DNA from: Malus domestica
Lineage: Eukaryota > Streptophyta > Magnoliopsida > Rosales > Rosaceae
Assembly: GCF_042453785.1 (NCBI RefSeq)
Contig: NC_091669.1
Span: forward strand, 10,056,501-10,120,500
Length of the DNA stretch: 64,000 nt
Reading direction: 5' to 3'
A program made the translations under genes and the position numbers. Below, piece by piece: positions 2,783-59,193 of this stretch; the stretch's first letter is position 1; each line of letters starts with the position of its first letter. The notes under the pieces are model-generated. The model was not told the origin of the DNA, made no database searches, and saw only the letters and a list, made by a program, of their open reading frames with translations.

Positions 2783-3521
2783 TGTGGAGCCAAAAATATT
2801 CACTAGGCGACACGTGGACTTTTGGACAAAAGAGGACAAAAATATCCTTGAGGCATACCAGGATTCCTACGCGCGAGCAGCGGGCAATCATCTTTCAATC
2901 AAGTCAAAAATGCCCAAAAAAGGTAACAATTAAAAACCTCTTTCATCAAATCCTTTCTATAAGGTATTTCCCAAAACCTAGTATTTTCTATTTCATTATT
3001 TAGCTAATCAATTAGCTAAATAATATATACCTACCATATCTCCTAAAAGCATCCTTAATAGTCAATAAAATCACTCAAATTGATAGTCAAAGCCGGCCAC
3101 CACCATTCCCATCCTCACCTTTCCCATTTTCCTTATTAAAATAGTCATTCATTTTTATAACCACCCATTTATTCTTTTCATATTTAATTAGCCAATAAAT
3201 TGGTTAATTAAACATGAAATTGAACCCCACAAAAAACCTTTAGTGGCTGGTTACTTTTATTCAAAACTGGACAAGGCCTAACTCTATAAATAGGCACCTA
3301 TTCTCACCAAAAATTCATTCAAATCCTCTTGCAAAAAATCCTAAACACTCTAAACACTTTTTTTCTCTAAAATTCTAACTTTGGCATCGGAGGTTCTTCG
3401 GCCAAAACCCCCCCCCCCATTCATCGTGGGCGCGTGAGGCTTTTGGCCTTAACCTAAGGTGCTAGTTGTTTTGTAGGTGCAAAATCGTCCAAGATTGAGG
3501 AGAAGAAAATTTGCATCCACA
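2783..3521 (+). mobile_element. Solo LTR, same family as the LTRs in UGT-F
   Basis: It begins TGTGGAGCCAAAAATATTC and ends TTGCATCCACA, and has the internal landmarks of the 930 bp LTRs at 50021-50950 and 56969-57899, in the opposite orientation. No internal retrotransposon sequence follows. Flanking pentamers are AACAG (2778-2782) and AACAA (3522-3526), an imperfect 5 bp TSD. At 739 bp it is shorter than the young LTRs, and it contains a long C-run near 3410. Confidence 0.8.
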
Positions 3522-4645
3522 AACAACATCCCTCTACACAACACCTTTGTACACAGCACCCCTCCACACTCTACACTCGATCATGGCTCCCATGTTGATG
3601 AAGAAGATGGAGAAGAAGTGTCTGAAACGCCCATTCCTGAACAAGCGTCGGGGTCGACCCGTTATCCAATTAGGCCTCAAGGTAAGAAGGCTTCAAAGAG
3701 GAAAAGGAGTGCTTTCAAGAATGATTATGGAAAGTACATGCAAGAACTTGCTCGTCAAGGTGAATTGACGTTAGTACGGGAATTGGCGAAATATGAGGCT
3801 GAAAAGGCTAGAGATGAGGCAAAAGCTGCATCTATTCAACAAGCATTTCAAGCTGAACAGAGGGAAAGAGAGCTACTTAGACAAGAAAGGGAGTTGCTTA
3901 GAGAAGAAAGAATTGCACAACGAGATTGTGACATTATGAACACACGTTTAGAAGGGATGTCTCCAAATTCTAAATATTTTTGGCAGTCGGAGAAAGAGGA
4001 TGTGGTGCAAAGGAGGCGTGCAAGAGAAGCGAGATGAAGACAAGATGGTCCTAGCACAACAAGACAAGATGATCCTAGCACCATAGATTGGTTAAGTGAT
4101 GATGAATAGGGTACTTTTTGTAATCGGAGCCCATAGTTTTCCAATCACTTTGGGTTGTAATTTATTATTTATGTTGTTTCCATTTTATTGAAGTTAGTAC
4201 TTTATTTAAAGTGAGAGTACATGTATTTAATTTCGTAATATATTTATCCCAATAATAGAATATTTATTCATCAAATTGTTCACGTATAATGAAATTATAA
4301 AACACACCAAATAAAACTAAAAAACTCACCAATTGGAATTACATAAACACACCAAATAAAATAACATAAACATACGAAATAATAAAAAACTCACTACAAA
4401 AAACACACCAAATAAAATTACAGAAACATTCCAAATAATTCACACCAAATAAAATTACATAATCATACGAAATAATAAAAAACTCACTACAAAAAACACA
4501 CCAAATAAAATTCCATAAACACACCAAATACAAACAAACATACTAAATAAACTTAAGTATCTTCAGCTTGTTTCAATGCCCACTGGTGCTTTATCAAGTC
4601 AATTTGCCAATTATTGTGCATAGATGACCTTTGAAGTGCAGTATA

Positions 4646-5968
4646 TCATTGAATGACCCTTTCATTGTAACGTCCATCCCTTTCTAATGGCTCGTGTTGC
4701 ACGGGTTCTTCGGTGGCATCATGCGCACAATATATCCGTGTTCTTGAATTGTTCATCGTGTCTGGCTCTGGCTCATATTCATCAACCGCATCATAATCGA
4801 ACTCATCTTCCACAATCATGTTGTGAAGAATGACGTACGTCATCATGATGGATCGAAGTGACTCTACATAGAACATTCTGGCAGCACCCCTGACGATCGC
4901 CCAACGAGCTTGAAGGATACCAAAACAACGCTCCACATCCTTCATGCACCTCTCTTGACAGCTTGCAAAGTGTTTTTCCTTTGCACTTGGCGGATGTGGC
5001 ACTGTTTTGACAAATGTTTCCCACCGTGGGTAAATGCTGTCAGCTAGGTAGTATGGCCCGTCGTACCTACGTCCATTGACGACCTACGTGACTTTTGGTG
5101 CCTTTCCTTGCAGGATGTCGTTGAACACCGGGGATTGGGTAAGGACGTTGAGATCATTTTGAGCCCCCGAAACCCTGAAAAAGGCGTGCCATATCCATGT
5201 ATCAAAAGATGCCACTGCCTCCAAAATGATAGATTTTGCTCTTTTTCTGTCCCCATATACGCCTTGCCATGCACTTGGAGAGTTTTTCCACATCCAGTGC
5301 ATACAATCGATGCTTCCTATCATCCCAGGAAAACCTCGCATCTCGCCCTTCTTAAAAAATCTTTGCAAGTCCATGCGAGTAGGTTTTCGGAGGTACTCTG
5401 CGGTGTACAAAGATTCGACTGCTCCGAAAAACCTCATCAGGGCCTCAAGAATGGTTGATTTCCCCATCCTCGTTATCTCATCCACTTGGCCTGCAGATGC
5501 TTCATACGCAAGCATCCGTAACGCAGCAGTGATTTTTTGCTGAGGCAGGATACCCATAACACCACAAGCATCATTCTTTTGCACAAAGTTAGAATCATGG
5601 TTGCAAACATCAGTCATGATTCTGTTGAACAAATGTCGTTCCATTATAAAACGGCGTCTGAAGTACGTATCAGGAAATGCACTGTTATGGATAAAGTAAT
5701 CGTCCAACAGCTCTTCACCCAGTCGTTGCCTGCTTTTATCAAGGTTTCTTGAACGGTTGGGCCTACATATCTGAGCAACAGTCTGGATGACTCGACGGGA
5801 ATCTGAGGCTCTGACCATTCTTGTTTCGTCATCTCTCCTTCTACGCTCCTCATCTTCTTCCATCTCATTTTCGGCTATCTGAAGGTTGAACATTTCTTCA
5901 AATTGGTTAAACAATTCTTCATCTTGCTGATCGATTTCCCACATCATCCTTGATGAAGAAGCAGACAT
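4646..5968 (-). pseudogene. Harbinger DDE transposase (HARBI1-like), one premature stop
   Basis: This is the catalytic nuclease that cuts and moves PIF/Harbinger elements (DDE_Tnp_4 family). ATG lies at 5966-5968. The frame encodes an acidic N-terminus, then a region found in plant HARBI1-like proteins (DYFIHNSAFPDTYFRRRF), then the core. The first catalytic Asp is in GSIDCMHW, the second in YYLADSIYP and the Glu in ERCFGILQARW. A TAG at 5084-5086 interrupts the frame between the first and second Asp, in KVT*VVNG, where relatives usually have an aromatic residue. Beyond it the same frame stays open to 4646. The full product would be about 440 residues, a normal length, so a single base change appears to be the only coding lesion. 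Confidence 0.88.
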
Positions 5969-40710: not shown

Positions 40711-43700
40711 ATGAAAATGAATCCAGAACGAAATCGCGCTAAAGCTAGGGCGTCACCCGTAAGTGGCGCGCTGTGTGGCCTGAGCACAGTGATAAGTGAG
40801 CAAGGGTCGCTGTATCTCCATCGGCACCCGGATACAGTGTTAAATGAGCAAGGGGGCTATAGAAACTTCTTTTCGAACGACTCAACTCAAAGTTGTTTGG
40901 GAGCATATGCTCCTATCAACTTTACACGGGACACACAAAAGAAGTACTTTGATCCTATTAGACGGGGAAGGGTGAAGAAGCTAGGACAGAAGGGTAGAGT
41001 TCAAGAGAGCAAAATGCGTTTAGGAACGTGGAATATAGGAACCTTGACGGGAAAATCTATGGAAGTAGTAGAAGTTATGGTGAGGAGAAGGATAAATATT
41101 ATGTGCCTACAAGAAACTAAGTGGGTTGGTCGTAAGGCAAAGGATCTAGAAAACTCAGGGTTTAAACTATGGTATTCAGGCACAAATAGAACGAGAAACG
41201 GTGTTGGCATCATCGTGGACAAGACCTTGACACAAGATGTTGTAGATGTCAAGAGGGTAGGAGATAGAATCATGGCAATCAAGATTGTAATAGGACAAGA
41301 ACTTATCAATGTGATTAGTGCGTACGCACCTCAAGTAGGGTTGGATACGAGTTCGAAGGAGAAATTTTAGGAAGACCTTGGAGACTTGGTGCAAGGAATT
41401 GCTCAGACGGAGAAGTTATTTATAGGAGGAGATTTAAATGGACACGTGGGCAGGGAGACAGGCAACTATGGAGGTTTTCATGGTGGCCATGGTTTTGGGG
41501 AGAGAAACGAGGATGGGGAAGCTATCTTGGATTTTGCAATGGCATATGATCTCTTCTTAGCCAACATCTTCTTTAAGAAGAGAGAAGAACATGTGATCAC
41601 CTACAAGAGTGGGTCGTCAAAAACACAAATAGATTTTCTTCTAATGAGGAAAGGGGATCGTATAACTTGTAAGGATTGCAAAGTTATACCAGGAGAGAGC
41701 GTGACTAATCAACATCGCTTGTCGGTGATGGATGTACATATCAAAAGAGTGAGAAAAAAGAACAAGACTTGGAAGTGCCCAAGGACTAGATGGTGGAATC
41801 TAAAAGAAGAAAAACAAGTCATTTTCAAAGAGAAAGTAATCACCCAGTGTGTGTGGGATAGAGAGGGGGAAGCTAACCAAATGTGGGATTCCATGGCTAG
41901 TTGTATCCGAAAAGTAGCAAAAGAGGTATTAGGAGAGTCCAAGGGCTTTACCCCACACCAAAAGGAATCTTGGTGGTGGAATGAGGAGGTACAAGCAAAG
42001 GTGAAGGCTAAGAAGGAATGTTGTAAAGCCTTATACAAGGATAGGACCGATGAAAATGGTGAAAGGTATAGAAAAGCGAAGCAAGAGGCGAAGAAAGCTG
42101 TGAGAGAAGCTAAGTTAGCGGCTTATGACGATATGTATAAGCGACTAGATACCAAAGAAGGAGAGTTGGATATCTATAAACTAGCTAGAGCAAGGGAAAA
42201 GAAGACAAATGACCTAAACCAAGTGAGGTGCATCAAGGATGAGGATGGAAAGGTTCTTGCTACAGAGAACGCGGTTAAAGACAGATGGAAAGGTTATTTT
42301 CATAATCTTTTCAATGAAGGACATGAAAGGAGTGCTTCTTTAGGGGAGTTGAGTAACTCAGAAGAGTGTAGAAACTACTTTTTTTATCGTAGAATCCGGA
42401 AGGAAGAAGTGGGTGTAGCTTTGAAGAAGATTAAGCATAGAAAAGCAGTAGGCCCAGACGATATACCAATCGAAGTGTGGAAAGTTTTGGGAGAGACAGG
42501 TATAACATGGCTCACTGACCTTTTCAATAGGATTTTGAAAACGAAGAAGATGCCGAATGAGTGGCGAATGAGCACTTTGGTGCCTATCTACAAGAATAAG
42601 GGCGATGTACAAAATTGCATGAACTATAGGGGAATTAAGCTAATGAGTCATACAATGAAGCTCTGGGAGAGAGTCATTGAGCATAGATTGAGGCAAGAGA
42701 CACGGGTTTCAAACAACCAATTCGGGTTCATGCCAGGACGCTCAACCATGGAGGCAATCTATCTCTTACGAAGATTGATGGAAAGATATAGAGATGGGAA
42801 AAAGGATTTACACATGGTCTTTATAGATTTGGAAAAAGCGTATTGTAGGGTCCTAAGAGACATTCTTTGGAGGATTTTAGAGAAGAAAGGAGTACGAGTA
42901 GCATATATCCAAGCTATACAGGATATATATGAAGGAGCAAAAACTGCCGTAAGAACTCATGAAGGACAAACCGAAAGCTTTCCCATAACTGTAGGATTAC
43001 ATCAAGGCTCATCCTTAAGTCCTTACCTTTTTGCGTTGGTAATGGATGAGTTAACAGGACATATTCAAGGTGATATTCCTTGGTGTATGCTTTTCGCAGA
43101 CGATATAGTGTTGATAGATGAAACTCAGGAAGGGGTAAATGCAAAGCTTAACCTTTGGAGAGAAGTGTTGGAATCTAAAGGTCTTCGCCTAAGCCGATCA
43201 AATACAGAATATATGGAGTGCAAGTTCAGTGCAAATGGAGGCCAAAACGAGTTAGGGGTGAGGATCGGAGATCAAGAAATACCAAAGTGCGACCATTTTC
43301 GTTACCTAGGATCTATCTTGCAAAAGAACGGAGAATTAGATGGAGATCTCAACCATAGAATACAAGCTGGATGGATGAAGTGGAAGAGTGCATCCGGCGT
43401 GTTGTGTGACCGCCGTATGCCACTGAAGCTCAAGGGAAAATTTTATAGGACGGCAATAAGGCCGGCGATGCTGTATGGCACAGAATGTTGGGCGGTGAAG
43501 CATCAACACGTACACAAAATGGGTGTAGCGGAGATGAGGATGCTTCGTTGGATGTGTGGGCACACGAGAAAGGATAAGATTAGGAATGAGGATATCCGGG
43601 GTAAAGTAGGAGTAGCCGAAATTGAAGGAAATATGAGAGAAAATCGGTTACGGTGGTTTGGACATGTGCAAAGAAGGCCTACTGACGCTCCGATTAGAAG

Positions 43701-43869
43701 ATGCGACTATGGGACAGAGGTTCAGGGCCGAAGGGGCAGAGGAAGACCTAGGAAAACTTTGAAAGAGACCCTAAGAAAAGACTTAGAGTACTTGGATCTA
43801 ACGGAGGACATGACACAGGACAGAACACAATGGCGTTCTAAGATTCATATAGCCGATCCCACTCAGTGA
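40711..43869 (+). pseudogene. LINE endonuclease-reverse transcriptase (RTE-like), one premature stop
   Basis: The open frame spans 1,053 codons with a single in-frame TAG at 41368-41370 (KEKF*EDL, where relatives have Trp). The N-terminal part is an apurinic endonuclease domain: [31 protein letters not shown] and [10 protein letters not shown]. The central part is the reverse transcriptase: [49 protein letters not shown] and the catalytic FADDIVLI. After FIDLEKAY the next residue is Cys where relatives have Asp (AYDRVPR). The C-terminus ([19 protein letters not shown]) is typical of this clade. There is no RNase H. It would nick target DNA and copy its own RNA into the genome; this copy is disabled by the stop. 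Confidence 0.9.
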
Positions 43870-46257: not shown

Positions 46258-47691
46258 GTAATCTTCACACGCAACATCAGCTTTCCAGATACCACAAACC
46301 ACTTTTTCAAAGTGCTCTGACAGAGTTAAAACATGTGAAGCTGGCAGCTCCTACTACCGTGCTATAACCAAGCAGGGTAAAGGAATAACATTATTACTTG
46401 ATGTTAGGGAGACTCCTATATATGTCGACTTCCATCCCTAACGGACAGGCAGACCTGCAAAAATGCTCAACCCTTTCTCTTATCTGAGAGGGCACTCCCA
46501 ACAAAGCCTTTCGAAATATTCAGCTTTCTTTCCCCCCGATAATACCTCTGTAAACAAGCTATACTAGAGCAAGAATATCTCATATCATCAGGGTTAAAAG
46601 CAAGAGTATCCCATATCATGCTTTTTCCCTGTCTTTTCCTTTGGCCTTGTTCTTACCTGCAAGACAAGGAGAAAGAGAGCAATCAGTCAACACTTGGAAT
46701 CAAGCTTCCAGCCAGGAACTGACTGCCTGGAACCCCTTACCTGATTACTTACCTGGCATTGCTCTCGAGTACTCATCTTCAACATCTTATGCTTCCAGGG
46801 AAGATACCGCATCTGCCTGAGGAACAGATAGGGCAAGTGAGAAGGATACAAGGAAGCATGTGGAGACAAGCGTAACAGCACACGTGCCGATACATCCACT
46901 ACTCTATCAAAAGCAAAAGTATCCCATATCAGCAGGGTCGAACGTACTCTAGATTTGATGGACTTGTTTTGACCCTCAAATTCTTCAGTCGGCCTTATAC
47001 TCTGGAGGAAACCAGAAAACCCTCCAGCCCAGTTCAAGAATAAGTCTGTGGAAAGTTACTTCTTCAAAAGCAAAAGTATCCCATATCATCTCTCCTCATT
47101 TTTCTTCTCTTTATCCTTCATGCTGCCTGCAAGATAGGGAGAATGTGAACAATCAGCCGGAGCTCTGATTGCTTACCTTGTCTGTCACCTCTTTCAGCAG
47201 ATCCCCCAGCTCGGCGACTTGGGGGACTCCTACTACATGGTTTGTATCTCGCTTGACCAAGCATGAAACTACAAGTAAGCTTCAAGTGAAATTGATACAT
47301 TACCTTGTGCATCTCCACCAGTTACAGATACCACCCCTGGATGGAGGAAGAGTACTTCCAGAGAAGATGCCACATCTACCTATGAGACAGATAAGGCAAG
47401 TCAAGACGATACCACACTCCGGTACTTAGAAGTTTCGTGGCTACGAGATCATTCTCCCACAATATTTCCTAATGTCATTTGTACTAAATCATTCACTTGT
47501 ACTCACTAAAGGAGAGCTTGAACCTATGTACTTGTGTAAACCCTTCACAATTAATGAGAACTCCTCTATTCCGTGGACGTAGCCAATCTGGGTGAACCAC
47601 GTACATCTTGTGTTTGCTTCCCTATCTCTATCCATTTATATACTTATCCACACTAATGACCGGAGCAATCTAGCGAAGATCACAAAAAGTG

Positions 47692-48273
47692 ACCGTTTTC
47701 GCTACCTAGGATCTATCTTGCAAGAGAACGGAGAATTAGATGGAGATCTCAACCATAGAATACAAGCTGGATGGATGAAGTGTAAGAGTGCATCCGGCGT
47801 GTTGTGTGACCGTCGTAGGCCACTGAAGCTCAAGGGAAATTTTTATAGGACGACAATAAGGCCAGCGATGTTGTATGGCACAGAATGTTGGGCGGTGAAG
47901 CATCAACGTACACAAAATGGGTGTAGCGGAGATGAGGATGCTTCGTGGGATGTATGGACACACGAGAAAGGATAAGATTGGGAATTAGGATATCCGAGGT
48001 AAAGTAGGAGTAGCCAAAATTGAAGGAAATATGAGAGAAAATCGGTTCCGGTGGTTTGGACATGTGCAAAGAAGGCCTACTGACGCTCCGGTTCGAAAAT
48101 GTGACTACGGGACAGAGGTTCGGGGCCGAAGGAGTAGAGGAAGACCTAGGAAAACTTTGGAAGAGACCCTAAGAAAAGACTTGAGTACTTGGATTTAACG
48201 GAGGACATGACACAAATGAGCGCAATGGCGTTCTAGGATTCATATAGCCGACCCCACTTAGTGGGAAAAGGCT

Positions 48274-49138: not shown

Positions 49139-50020
49139 CTTACAAAACCATTTCAAATAGTTTAATATCAACATGAATAGAAGAACTGATTTTCACACCA
49201 TTTTTAGTAACTAAATAAAACTGAAGATGTAGTAGCAGGCATAACATGTTGCTAGTTCTTTTGAACCGATAACTGTTAGGCATGCAATACATGTCTCTTA
49301 TTAGTTCCAATGCACAGCATCTAGATCTTTTTAGACTGAATTTGATTCACTAATTTTTCCAAGTTTGCAGATGAAGAACCCTGTGGACCAGTGGCTTCCT
49401 CTGCCAATTTTTTCCACTCCATGGCCTTATTCTTCATTCGCGTACCCTTCTCTCCCTCCATTAACTCTCTAACAAGCTTCTCAACATCATCTCTCTTGAC
49501 ATCATTATTGATCTCCATACCAATGCCCCATTTTTTGCAAGTATAGTGACAGTTCGTAGGCTGATCAGCAAAGAACGGCCAACACAGCATAGGCACTCCT
49601 GCAGACACACTTTCCACCGTAGAATTCCAACCACTGTGTGTCAAAAATCCTCCAACTGATGGATGGTTAAGGACTAGCTCTTGAGGGCACCAACTCGCTA
49701 TTAGACTTCTCCCCTTAGTTTCATCCACAAACTCGGGTGGCAAAATTGCTGATCTACCAACTACCAAGCCAGGCCTAATTACCCAGAAGAAAGAAACCTT
49801 GCTATTTGCAAGTCCACAACCAAATTCCACAAGTTGTTCCGGGGTCATGACCGTTATGCTGCCGAAATTCACATAAACAACTGAGTTTGGTGCCTTATCG
49901 TTCAGCCATTCGAGGCACTCTGTTTCTTCTTTCCACAGGCTATATCCCAGGGACTTCAAAGGGTGTTGTGGTATCTGATTGAGAAGTAACTGGAAAGGGC
50001 CAACGGCGTAAACAGGTGGA

Positions 50021-50950
50021 TGTGGATGCAAATTTTCTCCTCTTCGATCTTGGACGATTTTGCACCTACAAAACAACTAGCACCTTAGGTTAAGGCCAAA
50101 AGCCTCACGCGCCCACGATGAATGGGGGGGGCTTTGGCCGAAGAACCTCCGATGCCAAAGTTAGAATTTTAGAGAGAAATAGTGTTTAGAGTGTTTTGGA
50201 ATTTTTGCAAGAGATTTGGAATGAGTGTTTGGTAAAAATGGGTGACTATTTATAGGACCAAATTGGTCCACATCTTCAAGAAATGGCCGGCCCTTTCTTT
50301 GTGCTTTGGGATGAATTTTGTGGTTTTATTAGCCACTTTATTGGCTAATAAAATATAATAGAAATAAATGGGAAGTTACCCAATTGAATGACTAGCGTTA
50401 TTTGGCTAATAAAGTGGAAGAAATTTGAAAAGGTGTGGAGCAAAGAGAGGGAATGTGGCCGGTCTACTAGGTGGGATTTTAGGGTTTATTTTAGGTTTAA
50501 TTAGCCAATTAATTGGCTAATTAAATATGAAAGGAAATGTTTTAGTATTTATGGTATTGATTGGCTAATTTAAAAGGGAAGGAAAGGTGGAAAAGGTAGA
50601 AAAAGGTGATGGAATAGGCTTTGAATGGGGTAGCCGGCCCTATATCATTTTTTAGGTTTGAGTGGATGTTTCAAATTGATAATTAAGGGATGATTTTAGG
50701 AGATATGGGAAGAATATATTATTTAGATAATTAATTAACTAAATAATATATTAGGGAAATTAAGTTTTGGAAATAATTACCTAAAATAAGATAATTTGGA
50801 ATTGGTTACCTCTTTTGGAGCATTTTTTGAATTGGTTGAGGATGATTACCCACTACTTGCGCGTAGGAATCCCGGTAGGCCTCAAGGGTATTTTTGTCCT
50901 CTTTCGTTCAAAAGTCCACGTGTCGCCTAGCGAATATTTTTGGCTCCACA
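50021..50950 (-). repeat. 3' LTR (left copy), 930 bp
   Basis: On the plus strand it starts TGTGGATGCAAATTTTC and ends TTTTTGGCTCCACA. A minus-strand polypurine-like tract (AGGTGTGGGGGCATT) lies directly next to it at 50951-50965. Confidence 0.9.
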
Positions 50951-51277
50951 AATGCCCCCACACCTGTTGGGCTGCTTGCAGAAAAGGGCAACAGGTGTAG
51001 AGATTTTCTCGCTTTAGGCAACTCTGAATTGATTTCTATTTTGTTGTTGATTCTCTCTTTAAATGGAAATTAGATCCTTCTAGGAAAGGGAAATAAATTT
51101 CTCTCAAAGCCTATTTAAGTCCACCTTAAGTGGGTTATTAAATCAACTTTGGAGAGCGATTTATTCTACCCTACAAGAGAGAGATAGCTTAGAGGATATT
51201 TGTTCCCCCTCCTCTAGCAATCTTCTACATCTTGCCCGTGCAAAGGACCGTATTTCGTTGCTTTCTTCGTCTTCTTC

Positions 51278-54200
51278 GTGCCGCACCAATGTAAGAAAAA
51301 TTTAATTTTTCTTGCCTTATTCTTGGATAGTGCTATTGCGGGGTGGTGCGGCACGTCGGCTGGCAGGGGCCAGGAGCTGGCTCGGCATGAGCTGAGGAGA
51401 TGTCGTGGCAGGGACCACTGCTTGGGCAGCTTGGCTTGGCCTGAGCCAAGGGCAGCTTGTGCAGCTGGGGTCGAGGATTGTGGCGCTAGGGCACAGTGTT
51501 AGGCGAGCCGCATAGCTCATGTCCTTTGGGCTCTTGGACCTGACTCGGGCCAGGCTGGCGATTGAGAGAAATAAGGAGATTGCGGGTCTCATGGGCTGCT
51601 GGAATGTTGGGCATGTATGCCTTCTGCCTGCTGGAATGCTGGGTTGAGCTCCCCTGCTGAGTACCATGAATGTCGTTGGCTACTTAGTCTTCTTTGCTGA
51701 AAGAAAGGTGGGCTGCTCCAGAAAGATGAGGTAAAGAGGATCAAGGCGGATGCACTGGCTCGTCTGATCGCTGTCGTGGAGCTTACTATGAATGAAGATG
51801 GAAAGAAGAGATCTTCCCCGCCTGCTCATGAGATGCCTAGTTAAGAAAAAACTGAAGACTTCTTCTGCTGCTCATGAGGGTCCGCTTGCTACCGAGAGGT
51901 ATGTGATTGACATGACTTCTTCTAATGGGAAGAAAAATAAGGCTGCTAGATCTGAGCATGTGGCGTCTTCCATGTTGAGAATGGCTAGTACAATTGTGGA
52001 TAAGATTACTCAGCGTAAAGGTTTTATCATGCCCCCAGTGCCGAAGTCTGTAGGACGTTCTTTAGGAGCCAAGTCCGGTTCACCTTTGTAGAGACTTGCT
52101 ATTATGAAGAGTGGTAAGGTGGACTCTGCTGCTAAAGTGGCGCCAAAGCCTGCTCCCTTTGCTGCTGAGATTGATTCGCCTCAGATTCAAGATCTTAAGC
52201 TTGCAATTTCTGAGCTTCGTTTCGCTACTTATGCTAAGAAGAGAGTGGATGAGCTTTTCTATTTCTCTGGAAGACTTGTTTGCTTTTACTTTTAAGGCTT
52301 CCATTGGTGAAGTAGTTGGAGAAGTTAGTGCCCAGACTGGGGCAGCCGGGGGTGAAGCGTCGGATGATGCCGCTGCTAAGAGCGTTACGGCTGTTTGAAG
52401 GTGTGGCGACCGAGTAGTCGTGGGATGTCCAAGCTGCTGTAATGTAGTATTTTAGGTAGCCTTTAGGATTTTCTTTGTTTTTCCTTGTAGCTTTTGTTTT
52501 GCTTGAATTCCTTCGGCCTTTGCTAGTTGTTTATAAACATGTTTTCCTTCGTTTTTCTTCATCTTCACTTCTTTTGTTCATGCCCTAACCTTTAGACTTG
52601 ATAGACCAGTGGCAAGCATGCTACTTTTTTATAAGCAGACAAACTCGCGTAGCCTATGCAGCTGTAGGTGTTGGTGTAGAACTTTGCAAAGTTGTTAGCC
52701 ATAGGGTTGGCAGCCGGATGCCTTACTTACAGAAGCAGACAAGTCCGCGTAACCACTAGGCTGTTAACCTTGACTTTCTTCAATTCCGTAGGTTGCGTAG
52801 CAAGTATCACAACACTTTAGGACTTGGTGTAGGTTGTTTCGCGCTTGGCAAAGGTGAAGCTTATCGACTACGTAGCATGTCGGCAGTGGATAAAACTTCG
52901 TATATGCGCGCTAGCTTGTTTAACCTTTCACAAGAATGTGCGGTTGTATAAGTCTAGTGCGGCTTCACTGCTCGAAGGGCAAGCCGTAGGCAGTCTTCCG
53001 GAATCCGTAGGCTACCTTAGTGCACTCGGTAGCAGCTTTAGGATTCCAGGGCAGCCGTCCATTAGATGTACTGCGTAATGTGCCCTCTCCGTCTCTAGGG
53101 CCCGGTTCCCCATGGATTAGGCCAAGAGACCCAAAATCCTTCAGTTAGCTAAGCCTTGAAAAAGACCATTGCGGCTACTTCTAGGAATCCCGGCGCAAGC
53201 CATCGTGCATCTAGTTATACTAGGGCAGCCAGGCTCATCCACGTCTGGATATTCGGAGTGTAAAGTTTATCCTCCCGTCTTGGAGAGCTGACCCATATGG
53301 GTGTCGGAGAATTGGTTTACCCTCTCGCACTGGAGAGCATGGTTGGTCCCTCGGGGGGCGCAATTCCTGCGATGAGTCCCTAAGAAGGGCGCAGTCTTCT
53401 TTTGAAGTGCATGAGTGATTAGTTGTTGTAAGCATGCAGCCAAGCCAAGTTGTGATTACTTCTAAATTCCTCATTGAAAAACGAGTGAAACGAACGAGAA
53501 CTTTAGCTGTAAGGTAGGAACTGCATAACAACTGGATAGTCCTCAGCTTGTGAGGTGGTGCTCGTCGAGCTTATTGAGTCTTCGGGTTTTGATGTAGCGG
53601 GAGGTCACACATGGTACTTCTTCAGATTGTAGGCCATCCATTTCTTTTCAATCTTTTTGCCGCTTTATGGTGGTGAGGGTGTAATTACTCTTGCCCCTTA
53701 CTCTGCTGATCTTGTACGGATCTTCCCAGATGGGATCCATCTTTTTGAAGCCTTCTCTGCCGGCAATGATGAAGGCTTTTCTGCGTCGTCGACATGCAAA
53801 TGCCAGAAGTCTCCATCGGGTGGAGTAAGCGCAGCTAGAGTGTGCTTGGCTACTTCTGAGGCATCGTTGGGCCGCTCTGTTGCGTCACCTAGGCTCGGCG
53901 TGAAGACGCAGTAGGGAGCTGTGGAGATGGGGCCATGTCATACGCAACAGGAGATGCTCAACTGCCGGTATTGGGCACTCTAAAGTTGAATCATTAAGCA
54001 AGGGTCGGCTAGGGTCGTGTGATGCGCAGCAAGAAATGGTACTCAACTGCCGGTACATGTTGCTCCTATGTAGAATCTTTTAGGGTGACGAGGACAAAAC
54101 TTACTTTCGAGTGTGTCCTTCCAGTGTTGCGTTTGTCAGAAAACTTTACATCTGCCAAGGTCTACGCCTTTATCGTCGCGCGTCTGGATTGGGCAGAATA

Positions 54201-54436
54201 GTACGTCATTAAGATGATTGCATGCGTTTGAAAGTAAAACTTGTGCTTCTGGGTTGCAACAACTATCGCCAAAGTTAGCTTTTGAATTTTTAATAACATC
54301 GAGGAGAGCTTTTGAACTGTAGAATACAGGTAACTGTGGAATACAGGTAGTCGGGCCCCCATCTCTTTTCGCATGATGGTAGAGCTTATTGCTACTTTAG
54401 ATACCGTCAAACATGTGAATAAGTCATCCGCTGCTT
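51278..54436. other. Non-coding internal region of the LTR element
   Basis: Where pol would lie there is GC-richer sequence with only short plus-strand open frames (51792-52091, 52111-52398) that have no known domain. I see no retroviral-type protease, reverse transcriptase or integrase motif on either strand. Confidence 0.6.
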
Positions 54437-56803
54437 CTAGGGAGGTGATGTTGGGTACTTCTTCAAGTCCTTGAATGTGCATTGGCGAGCCTCATCCCAA
54501 AGTGCATACTTCTCTGCCAAAGCAAAAGAGTCTGCCAGAGTTAGATCTTCTTTCATGATCAATTTTCCGAATAGCGGGTGGTCTGCTGGAAGTCCTTTTT
54601 GGAAGGCTGCTCTAGCTATCGAGTCGTTGCATCCGACTATTTTTGCCTTCTCTACTTTGAACCTCCTCACATAGTCGCGAAGTGACTCATTTGGGTTCTT
54701 CTTGACGTTGAACAAATGATCAGATTTCTTTTTGATCGAGCGATAGGATGAATATTCTTTGGTGAAAACCAAAGAAAGTTCGTAGAAATTCCGGATGGAT
54801 TGTGGCGGCAGGGTGTAGAACCAATCTTGCGCCTCGCCTTGTAGAGTGGTGGCGAATATCTTGCACATGAGCTCATCGTTGTTTCGATAAAGGATCATTG
54901 CGCTTCGGTAGCGCTTTAAGTGTCTCTCCGGGTCTTCATCCCCTTTGAAAGATGTGAAATGTGGCATGCTGAACTCTCGTGGAGGCTCTGCCTGCTCGAT
55001 CTCGTCCGTGAAGGGTGACCTGCTTATGTTGGTCATGTTCCGTCGTAGTGCCTCGTCGGTGACCTCATTGCGTTGGAAATCATGCAATCGCTTGGTCAAG
55101 AGTCTCTCTACTTCTTCCTGAATTTGCCTTTGTTGGGGTAGTGCAGCTCTCGGCTGCCCCCAGCCATGACTTGCTGGTCTAGGCTGCTCTTCCATGTGTT
55201 TGGCTCGTCTATGCCGCAGATGCAGTGCATATGGTGCATTCCTAGCAGGCGAGCGAGTTCTTTGCAGGCTGCTGGTTGAACTTGAGCTGGATTGAGTGAC
55301 TGCTTCTCTCCGTCCGTCGTGCTGCCTACTTTGATGTGAGGTGGATGATGCTCCTTGTGGGCTTAGCCGCAAATGAACACTTTGTCTGGAAGGTTGCTCA
55401 TGTTGACTATCGGAGTGTGACCCCAACCGTGAATGTATGCTCATCCGTTGGCCTAGTCGAGAGTACACGCTCCTCCGCGCGCTAAAACGGGAGTATACGC
55501 TATCTCGGGAGCCCAATCGGGAATGTACACTGCCTGAACGTTCAGCTCGTGGCTGGTCGAATGGCTGCTTGCTGGGATGCTGCTGGAAAGGTTCGTCTGC
55601 CCTTGTCCTACTTCGGGATACCTCGTCCGGGGCACGTTGGATCCCGATGCGTTGCAAAAGTTGATTCACCAAAGTTGTCTGTTGTGCAAGGGCGCTCGTC
55701 AACTCTATGACTTGTCGAGACAAGTGTTGTTCGCCATTTGGATTGGAAGAGCTTGGAATGAATGCGCCTCCTTGAGCAGTGGAAGGGTGGTAGACTCCGG
55801 GCGCGAGATTTGAGTTGGGAAATGTCAAATCCGCGAAAAAATGTGGTGAGAATGCCCCCGGCTCGATGGTAGGTCCAGATGGTTGAGATAGTTTTGGGCC
55901 GACTTGGGCTGCTTGGAAAGCCACGGGAGCAGTGTGGGCCTTGAGAGTGGGCTGCTCGTCGGGAGTGGGCTGCTCGTTGGGAGCAGGCTGGGTCACGAGA
56001 GCAGGCTGCTTGGCAGGAGCAGGTTGCTTGGCGGGAGCAGGCTGGGCCACGGAAGCAGGCTGCTTGGCAGGAGCAGGTTGCTTGGCGGGAGCAGGCTGGG
56101 CCACGGAAGTAGGCTGCTTGGCAGGAGTAGGCTGGGCCACGGGAGTGGGCTGCTTGGCAGGAGCAGGCTGGGCCACGGAAGTGGGTTGCTCGACGGGAGC
56201 AGGCTGGATCACGGGAGCAGGCTGCTCAATGCGCGGTGCATGTGAATGCGAGGCTTGGGCTTGGGTCCACGTGAACTTGGATGGCACGGCTTGGATCGTG
56301 GTCTTGGTACCGTGAGCCTTGGATGGCACGGCTCGGGCCGTGGTGAAGGCTCCATGGACCTCGCCACGAGTGGCTACCGAAGTAGCCATCGTGGTGGTTC
56401 CCATGGTGGCCGTGGTGAAGGCATCATGGACCTCGCCGTGGGTGGCTACCGAGGTAGCCACCACGGTGGTTCCCATGGTGGAAGCTCGTGGTGATGATGT
56501 CGCTCCCCTTATTGTCGCATTTTGCCTTACGGATCTCCGGGTCGTGGTGAAGGCTCCATGGACCTCGCCACGAGTGGCTACCGAAGTAGCCACCGCGGTG
56601 GTTCCCATGGTGGCCGTGGTGAAGGCACCATGGACCTCGCCGCGGGTAGCTACCGAAGTAGCCACCACAGTGGTTCCCATGGTTGAAGCTCGTGATGATG
56701 ATGCCGCTCCCCTTATTGTCGCATTTAGCCTCACGGATCTCCGCAATCCCATTTCTTGAACATTAGAATTTTCACTTGTGGAATTTTCTAAATTTCTAGC
56801 CAT
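54437..56803 (-). CDS. Retrotransposon Gag protein
   Basis: The probable start is the ATG at 56801-56803 (MARNLENSTSENSN), giving 788 residues; the frame is open further upstream to 56947. Gag packages element RNA into cytoplasmic particles. The N-terminal third is built of repeats: first 'TMGTTVVATSVATRGEVHGA' units, then many QPAPAKQP / PVAQPTPAK units. A Ser/Arg-rich middle follows with repeated SVYSRLG-type motifs. The C-terminal quarter is the gag core: FTSFKGDEDPERHLKRYR, then LQGEAQDWFYTLPP, then NESLRDYVRRFKVEKAKI, then AFQKGLPADHP. It ends without a visible CCHC zinc knuckle or any protease domain. Confidence 0.88.
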   Translation of the reverse strand: MARNLENSTSENSNVQEMGLRRSVRLNATIRGAASSSRASTMGTTVVATSVATRGEVHGAFTTATMGTTAVATSVATRGEVHGAFTTTRRSVRQNATIRGATSSPRASTMGTTVVATSVATHGEVHDAFTTATMGTTTMATSVATRGEVHGAFTTARAVPSKAHGTKTTIQAVPSKFTWTQAQASHSHAPRIEQPAPVIQPAPVEQPTSVAQPAPAKQPTPVAQPTPAKQPTSVAQPAPAKQPAPAKQPASVAQPAPAKQPAPAKQPALVTQPAPNEQPTPDEQPTLKAHTAPVAFQAAQVGPKLSQPSGPTIEPGAFSPHFFADLTFPNSNLAPGVYHPSTAQGGAFIPSSSNPNGEQHLSRQVIELTSALAQQTTLVNQLLQRIGIQRAPDEVSRSRTRADEPFQQHPSKQPFDQPRAERSGSVHSRLGSRDSVYSRFSARRSVYSRLGQRMSIHSRLGSHSDSQHEQPSRQSVHLRLSPQGASSTSHQSRQHDGRREAVTQSSSSSTSSLQRTRSPARNAPYALHLRHRRAKHMEEQPRPASHGWGQPRAALPQQRQIQEEVERLLTKRLHDFQRNEVTDEALRRNMTNISRSPFTDEIEQAEPPREFSMPHFTSFKGDEDPERHLKRYRSAMILYRNNDELMCKIFATTLQGEAQDWFYTLPPQSIRNFYELSLVFTKEYSSYRSIKKKSDHLFNVKKNPNESLRDYVRRFKVEKAKIVGCNDSIARAAFQKGLPADHPLFGKLIMKEDLTLADSFALAEKYALWDEARQCTFKDLKKYPTSPP

Positions 56804-56949
56804 TATATTTTGCTTATACGTTTTATCAAAGAACCTTTGCAAGTAAAAAATTCTAATAATAAGAACGTATGAAAAATATTCAAATGGACTAGAAAATAAA
56901 GAAAAAACCTTTTTTGTGCGAGAGTCTTCTACGAGTATGGATTTCAACT

Positions 56950-56968
56950 CTCAATGAAAGCACCAATT
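56950..56968 (-). other. Primer-binding-site region of the LTR element
   Basis: The minus strand reads AAATTGGTGCTTTCATTGA directly after the 5' LTR. This is where the tRNA primer would anneal; I cannot say which tRNA from memory. Confidence 0.5.
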
Positions 56969-57899
56969 TGTGGATGCAAATTTTCTCCTCTTCGATCTTG
57001 GACGATTTTGCACCTACAAAACAACTAGCACCTTAGGTTAAGGCCAAAAGCCTCACGCGCCCACGATGAATGGGGGGGGGCTTTGGCCGAAGAACCTCCG
57101 ATGCCAAAGTTAGAATTTTAGAGAGAAATAGTGTTTAGAGTGTTTTGGAATTTTTGCAAGAGATTTGGAATGAGTGTTTGGTAAAAATGGGTGACTATTT
57201 ATAGGACCAAATTGGTCCACATCTTCAAGAAATGGCCGGCCCTTTCTTTGTGCTTTGGGATGAATTTTGTGGTTTTATTAGCCACTTTATTGGCTAATAA
57301 AATATAATAGAAATAAATGGGAAGTTACCCAATTGAATGACTAGCGTTATTTGGCTAATAAAGTGGAAGAAATTTGAAAAGGTGTGGAGCAAAGAGAGGG
57401 AATGTGGCCGGTCTACTAGGTGGGATTTTAGGGTTTATTTTAGGTTTAATTAGCCAATTAATTGGCTAATTAAATATGAAAGGAAATGTTTTAGTATTTA
57501 TGGTATTGATTGGCTAATTTAAAAGGGAAGGAAAGGTGGAAAAGGTAGAAAAAGGTGATGGAATAGGCTTTGAATGGGGTAGCCGGCCCTATATCATTTT
57601 TTAGGTTTGAGTGGATGTTTCAAATTGATAATTAAGGGATGATTTTAGGAGATATGGGAAGAATATATTATTTAGATAATTAATTAACTAAATAATATAT
57701 TAGGGAAATTAAGTTTTGGAAATAATTACCTAAAATAAGATAATTTGGAATTGGTTACCTCTTTTGGAGCATTTTTTGAATTGGTTGAGGATGATTACCC
57801 ACTACTTGCGCGTAGGAATCCCGGTAGGCCTCAAGGGTATTTTTGTCCTTTTTCGTTCAAAAGTCCACGTGTCGCCTAGCGAATATTTTTGGCTCCACA
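56969..57899 (-). repeat. 5' LTR (right copy), 931 bp
   Basis: Nearly identical to 50021-50950. It should contain the promoter of the element, reading leftwards. A solo LTR of the same family sits at 2783-3521. Confidence 0.9.
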
Positions 57900-58136
57900 G
57901 TGGAGACATAGATGAGAGAGCATCCAAAACATCCATCTCCAATGCATCAAAGGTATGTATAACAATTGCTGAAGCTTCATGTAGTCTGCCCATTCCTTCA
58001 AGTATGATATTCCAGATTGCATCATTGGGATTTGTTGTTATAAAGTTGTTAGGAAGATCCCTTAAACGAATACTTTCAATTCCTGGTATCCAGTCTACCT
58101 CTTGGTCTAAAAAGCCATTCGTGAAGCACCTCTCAT

Positions 58137-58691
58137 CTACAAACAGCCAAGTAATGCTTTATTAGTAAAAAGTATCTTCATTTGCTTGATTAACATATAC
58201 AAACTCTCTCATGGACAATTTGTCTTTTTTTGCCAATGCAACAATTGTCGTTCATGAACTTTGAAATTAGGACGTCTCCAACAAATTCGAAATTGGGTGC
58301 TACTAGATTAATTGATCATTAGCAACCACTGTTGTTGATTAATTAAAAAATTAGAACTAATAACCAAATTGTGAAACTGTTATTAGCACTTCAGAAAGTA
58401 ACCATGCCTTCTTCCCTTTCTTTATTTTTTTGGGTAATTGCTTATGTTGATTACCACTTTTTCTCACACTGCACATCCTTATTTATTTTTTACTATTGAA
58501 TTGGTTGAATAAATCAAAGCATAATCAATTAACAAAAATAAGCATGATGAAATTATTTCCCTTACTTTTTCACTAGGGAGGAGTGTAAGATGAATTTTTG
58601 TAGATTCAATAATAGTTTCCTAAAATCAGACCCCAAAAAAACAAAAACAAAAATAGTTTCCTAAAATCAAACAATTGCTTTAATTCTTTAC
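58137..58691 (-). other. UGT-F intron
   Basis: 555 bp GT-AG intron at the family position, with acceptor TTTGTAG|ATGAG. It is 4-5 times longer than in UGT-B, UGT-C and UGT-E. Confidence 0.8.
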
Positions 58692-59193
58692 CTTTGAGGG
58701 GTGCTAGTCCTCTTTCCACCAAAGCAGGATACTGCATATAGCCCATGGTGCTGCTTGCTGAATAAGTAAACAAGAGAATGACGGGGATGCCAAGTTGTTG
58801 AGCTGCAGGGGTTGTGAATGGCATGAAACCATCTGAAAAAATGCATGTCACTGGAGGAGTACTACTACTATTGTTGAGTTTCTTTATCAGATCAACGAAA
58901 GGTGCCAACAAGTTGTTTGTGACGGAATCTGCAAGCAAATTGAGGTCTTGGGTGGCATCTTCATCCGAATCCGGTAGGCCATCTGGGATCGTTTCAAATC
59001 GAAAATCATCAGGCAAGCCATAGAGGGACTCGGGTCCTTGAGATTTGACTAACCGCCTATGATTGAACTCGGTGTTGACATAGGTTATACGAAAACCTTT
59101 ATGGTGGAGAAGTTTTGCTAATTGAAGCATTGCCTTTATGTGACCTTGAGCCGGAGCTGGAATACAAACAGCATGAGGCTTGTTAGAACACAT

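Follow-up and report, generated by a model that had tools for sequence, protein, structure and literature searches.

In the apple genome, the recent insertion of an apparently gag-only LTR retrotransposon has broken UGT-F, one of three tandem duplicates of a glucosyltransferase gene, most likely with the loss of a redundant copy rather than of an enzyme activity; we give this reading a probability of about 85%. The window was the 64,000-nucleotide stretch of Malus domestica DNA that was analyzed, NC_091669.1 (C9):10056501-10120500, in a genome of 651 Mb in 19 contigs. Positions given without a contig name are those of the window.

UGT-F runs on the minus strand from 59193 to 49321, and its exon 2 is split by an LTR element of 7,879 bp. 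On that strand, exon 1 (58692-59193, 502 bp, with the ATG at 59193) is followed by a GT-AG intron (58137-58691), by the piece of exon 2 upstream of the insert (57905-58136, 232 bp) and, beyond the insert, by the piece that extends to the stop codon (49321-50020, 700 bp). Joined together, the exon pieces (502+232+700) make 1,434 bp, or 478 codons, in frame. When each piece was translated separately, no stop or frameshift was found in them and their phases agreed. His18 (codon 59142-59140), Asp121 (codon 58833-58831) and a 44-residue PSPG box (49692-49561) were all kept, and we take these to be the catalytic residues and the box by the definition of the motifs. The earlier note had claimed that the gene without the insert has an open frame with all three features, which agrees with this result, and no additional stop appeared in the empty-site gene.

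The downstream piece of exon 2 alone gave a UDPGT domain (PF00201, E 4.1e-26). The matches of UGT-F were named '7-deoxyloganetin glucosyltransferase-like', and the nearest solved sequence was 2pq6. The UDPGT domain, the PSPG box, the His/Asp pair, the single intron and the tandem cluster are shared with plant family-1 UGTs of the group that is presumably UGT85, from which UGT-F differs in being interrupted by an LTR element. Directly past the UGT-F stop codon, the segment 48793-49128 is self-complementary (90% over 340 aligned positions) and contains a long (AT)n run.

The LTRs were located by self-comparison of the window and delimited by alignment. In the direction of the gene, the 5' LTR is 931 bp (56969-57899, minus strand) and the 3' LTR is 930 bp (50021-50950, minus strand), both with TG...CA ends. 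Reading of the sequence placed one copy of the target site duplication GTGGA at 57900-57904, on the 5' side of the element in the gene direction, and the second at 50016-50020, so the split of exon 2 with an exact duplication was as the earlier note had described it. A repeat pair of 930 bp that terminates exactly at a 5-bp duplication cannot be accounted for by chance, and the direct LTR pair, the TG..CA ends and the target site duplication are together those of an LTR retrotransposon, which has the same orientation as UGT-F. The sole differences between the two LTRs in global alignment were a substitution (C at 50901, T at 57850) and the length of a homopolymer run, by one G, the same two that had been counted by eye; one substitution in 930 bp is far from a large divergence. 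AATTGGTGCTTTCATTGAGAG follows the 5' LTR and the G-rich GTGTGGGGGCATT precedes the 3' LTR, and by reading alone they are candidates for the primer binding site and the polypurine tract.

In the allele as assembled, 246 native residues are followed by 32 LTR-coded residues and a stop (278 aa), and the reading frame ends before the PSPG half. The interrupted allele, which lacks the UDP-sugar-binding half, should therefore be inactive as predicted from its sequence. Transcripts may possibly be polyadenylated within the LTR, and the 3' LTR may possibly start transcription of the downstream half.

We then consider the element itself. Its gag frame (54437-56947, minus strand, 836 aa), the only long frame in the element, carried PF03732 (Retrotrans_gag) at residues 696-786 with E 5e-13. 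The internal region is overlapped by 58 stop-to-stop frames of at least 50 aa, and the gag frame and 10 of the 57 others were scanned for domains, with cut-offs of E<=0.001 for the gag frame and E<=1 for the 10 other frames. In these 11 of 58 frames, no significant reverse transcriptase, RNase H or integrase was found, and the best hit was RNase H with E 0.039, under the curated cut-off. Within the scanned frames the element thus lacked the three domains of an autonomous Ty3/gypsy element, and gag was the sole domain between its LTRs. Because only a gag frame was found in the frames scanned, the element is probably non-autonomous. It had been called a complete LTR element; this held for its structure (LTRs and target site duplication) but not for its coding content. 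In an extract of PMC6022998, TR-GAG elements are described as having only a gag domain, or gag and protease domains, between the LTRs. The UGT-F element resembles these non-autonomous retrotransposons in its LTR pair, its target site duplication and gag as the sole domain found, and differs from them in that weak remnants of the pol end are kept and its LTRs are common to a long, pol-bearing family in the same genome.

When the LTR was compared with the rest of the genome, 10 further full-length matches at 98-99% were found among the 40 scored of 3,083 candidates. Matching LTR pairs elsewhere were spaced by 7.9 kb on C2, as in the UGT-F element, and by about 12.5 kb on C5 and C7. The two 12.5-kb pairs, at C5:38152102-38164565 and C7:11982218-11994762, are 98-99% identical to the LTR of the UGT-F element. 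A 4-kb sample between the LTRs of the long member on C5 contained RVT_1, RNase H, RVT_3 and integrase domains, and the order of reverse transcriptase, RNase H and integrase is that of Ty3/gypsy elements. Elements of the Tat lineage typically carry an additional RNase H. Three pieces of the UGT-F element, all on the minus strand (54475-54205, 53904-53787 and 53782-52749), resemble the part of the long family member from RNase H to beyond the integrase, with 66-79% DNA identity. Since the LTRs are 98% alike and the shared internal pieces only 66-79%, LTRs have probably been exchanged between autonomous and non-autonomous partners. Judging from the shared LTRs, a long partner that carries them would most likely have mobilized the UGT-F element in trans. 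More diverged pieces of this family's LTR (74-83%) lie at 2783-3523 and at C9:10030852-10031587, in the orientation opposite to that of the element in UGT-F.

The search for tandem copies covered 214 kb of C9 (10006501-10220500). Within this region there were two close, near-full-length copies of UGT-F on the same strand, named F2 and F3 (UGT-F itself being F1), together with shorter fragments and copies of less than 84% identity. In F2 (C9:10137139-10135157, minus strand) the frame stays open for 477 codons before its stop, and the ATG of this copy lies 21.4 kb upstream of that of UGT-F; 19 of 476 residues differ between the two, giving 96% protein identity. F3 (C9, from 10178640, minus strand) is interrupted by a stop at codon 260 and by an LTR insert in exon 2. 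This insert is a copia-type element of 4.7 kb (C9:10172026-10176767) with LTRs of about 285 bp that differ at one position and a target site duplication GAATA; within it, 1,367 codons lie open from stop to stop and encode gag, integrase and RVT_2 domains of copia type. The F3 insertion is young and independent of that in UGT-F. The introns differ by 4.0% between F1 and F2 and by 4.6% between F1 and F3, as against 0.1% between the LTRs, so the duplications occurred well before the insertion. At C9:10170843-10170935 the sequence matches the final 93 bp of UGT-F at 100%, and beyond this it matches the flank downstream of UGT-F at 97-99%; this is the remnant of another, mostly lost copy.

The insertion site is unoccupied in both close tandem copies, F2 and F3. 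It is also unoccupied in the pear protein P0104 (Pyrus communis, 495 aa), which runs uninterrupted across the site and shares 93, 95 and 96% identity with the three pieces of UGT-F; P0104 was the best match among the best 120 of 5,472 protein matches, its closeness being one of ranking and not of tree-based orthology. The protein matches considered were the best 120 of 5,472, of 4,853 and of 1,807, in a collection clustered at 90%, and this clustering hides single Malus alleles near P0104 in a cluster of 21 members. The Malus domestica protein P0133 (259 aa), which continues across the site without a break, was a candidate for the empty-site allele of UGT-F, and was rejected as being F3, since its residues 168-259 match the F3 locus at 100%. 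At the insertion site, another Malus domestica protein, P0134 (DVH24_032556), has the residues SSMSPL. These could be compatible with an LTR in this position in another apple assembly and a splice within it (CT^GTGGAG), but the other residues of P0134 are F3-like and it has a tail from elsewhere.

The age of the insertion was estimated from the single substitution between the LTRs (930 bp). With a rate of 1.3e-8 per site per year it was 41,000 years (95% Poisson 1,050-230,000), and at 4e-9 per site per year it was 134,000 years (95% Poisson 3,400-749,000); if the homopolymer is taken as a second event, these become 83,000 and 269,000 years. The higher rate is that applied to apple in an extract of PMC6445120, and the lower that applied to Rosaceae in an extract of PMC11197308. 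All estimates are far under the apple-pear split, quoted at 8.1 million years in PMC6445120. The LTRs could nevertheless give a falsely young appearance through exchange or conversion. That an old LTR pair was homogenized by gene conversion or by LTR exchange within the family draws some support from the short and long family members, in which LTRs 98-99% alike accompany internal remnants of 66-79%, as if LTR sequence were mobile between members. This explanation is nonetheless very improbable in view of the site left unoccupied in pear P0104 and in both F2 and F3, the exact target site duplication and an interrupted exon without stop or frameshift. The insertion in UGT-F is real, recent and ordinary in kind; its description as very recent was upheld by the single substitution between the LTRs and by the unoccupied site in P0104, F2 and F3.

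Whether UGT-F was functional before the insertion is a more delicate matter. In an alignment with 120 full-length relatives, UGT-F departs from 3 of the 128 scored columns that are conserved in at least 95% of sequences, and the median relative departs from 1.5% of columns. Two of the three departures are common to pear, and the third, Asp329Gly, is its own, at a position where 97% of the relatives agree. The LTR insertion is the sole inactivating lesion seen, so the statement that no other lesion is visible stood in that respect, but this missense change exists beside it. A Trp to Cys change at 'FGCGLANS' was considered as a lesion and rejected, because the pear relative shares it. Between F1 and F2, dN was 0.018 and dS 0.033, giving a dN/dS of 0.55 (Fisher p 0.18); between F1 and F3, dN/dS was 0.40 (p 0.013). 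In the N part of exon 2, dN/dS was 1.35 against F2 and 1.17 against F3. Over the part aligned in all three copies, lineage-specific amino-acid changes numbered 3 in F1, 10 in F2 and 12 in F3 (the F3 stop included). In F1 alone, 3 of 6 changed codons were nonsynonymous, which was not significant (p 0.12). The number of coding substitutions expected to have accumulated after the insertion is only about 0.8, so the missing later decay tells little.

These values leave some room, in our judgment appreciably under an even chance, for a gene that had lost its function or selection beforehand, the LTR merely marking a dying duplicate. Such a history would suit the F1-F2 ratio, which is not significantly below 1, the high ratios in the N part of exon 2, Asp329Gly and the likewise broken state of B, D, E and F3, and the small number of substitutions expected after the insertion makes the absence of decay uninformative about it. 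It fits less well with F1 having fewer lineage-specific amino-acid changes than either F2 or F3 and neither stop nor frameshift, and with its upstream sequence, which is collinear with that of F3 over 1.2 kb at 95%. That the gene was functional until recently, as the earlier note supposed, is thus plausible and weakly tested, favored by the conservation (3/128) and the F1-F3 comparison and not significantly by that of F1 with F2. The evidence, short of proof, leans to function up to the insertion.

Our preferred history runs as follows. A family-1 glucosyltransferase gene of UGT85 type, part of a tandem cluster, was recently duplicated to give F1, F2 and F3. Between roughly a thousand and several hundred thousand years ago, a TR-GAG-like element of Ty3/gypsy type with gag only entered exon 2 of F1 in the orientation of the gene, its mobilization most likely supplied in trans by the long partner, and left a truncated, presumably inactive product. 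F3 was broken separately, by its stop codon and its young copia-type insertion, and F2 is still an open frame. The most likely outcome is that a redundant copy, on which selection had weakened, was lost.

An effect on metabolite content, which the earlier note had raised, is made less likely by F2, because this copy is open and its predicted protein is a near-twin. A recent loss of a functional glucosyltransferase, with an intact allele still segregating and the polymorphism changing glycoside content, would accord with the open frame and conserved residues of UGT-F, the young LTRs and, in an extract of PMC6445120, the commonness of presence/absence differences of LTR elements between apple genomes. 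We regard it as unlikely, given the near-identical open F2 with its ATG only 21 kb off and the further open relatives A and C in the window. F2 may, on the other hand, be no substitute for F1, because about 5.8 kb of foreign DNA starts 365 bp upstream of its ATG: F2 is collinear with the upstream sequence of UGT-F for those 365 bp only, and collinearity resumes beyond the foreign block (C9:10137505-10143307). No terminal direct repeat pair was found in this block, and no target site duplication was seen by eye.

Among the other relatives in the window, B is broken by a frameshift at its 3' end, D by truncation and frameshifts, and E by an internal deletion in exon 2. The open neighbor C is 98.4% identical to a protein of Malus baccata var. 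baccata. UGT-F is thus not the only broken gene of this busy tandem cluster, in which several members are broken and its near-twin F2 is open.

The LTR element redTE is reportedly placed upstream of MdMYB1 in apple. The UGT-F element is like redTE, as presented in an extract of PMC6445120, in being an LTR element that alters a metabolic gene of apple; redTE is an expression enhancer, unlike the UGT-F element, which splits a coding exon. About 31.9% of intact LTR elements in HFTH1 apple are specific to that genome, the target site being present only once in Golden Delicious, and 12.05% of the HFTH1-specific LTR insertion events lie inside genes (PMC6445120). With these base rates, recent and possibly polymorphic LTR insertions in apple genes are ordinary. 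The UGT-F element is like the recent insertions that distinguish HFTH1 from GDDH13 in its LTR pair, target site duplication, youth and length (7,879 bp against a mean of 7,868 bp); unlike them, as far as the extract of PMC6445120 describes them, it sits in a coding exon, and it is known here from one assembly. No description of the UGT-F insertion was found among the papers listed on UGT85 or apple glycosyltransferases and retrotransposon insertion, as judged from the openings of the abstracts. UGT-F offers a clean, datable case of a tandem glucosyltransferase cluster losing a member by retrotransposon insertion, and the insertion is a possible marker for apple genotyping.

The repeated hits on one young glucosyltransferase subclade are the more unusual point and the one of wider interest. 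Exon 2 was hit in F1 and in F3 by unrelated young LTR elements, one gypsy-type and one copia-type, and foreign DNA lies close upstream of F2. It is a rather improbable suggestion that these mark a local insertion hot spot or an active shedding of the redundant subclade, and a hot spot cannot be claimed from only two insertions.

Other traces of mobile DNA were seen in the window. A frame at 5084-5968 (minus strand) has a Plant_tran (PF04827) transposase domain. An 827-aa frame with RVT_1 at 41386-43869 (plus strand), which would be LINE-like, has a 93% partial copy at 47686-48263, downstream of UGT-F.
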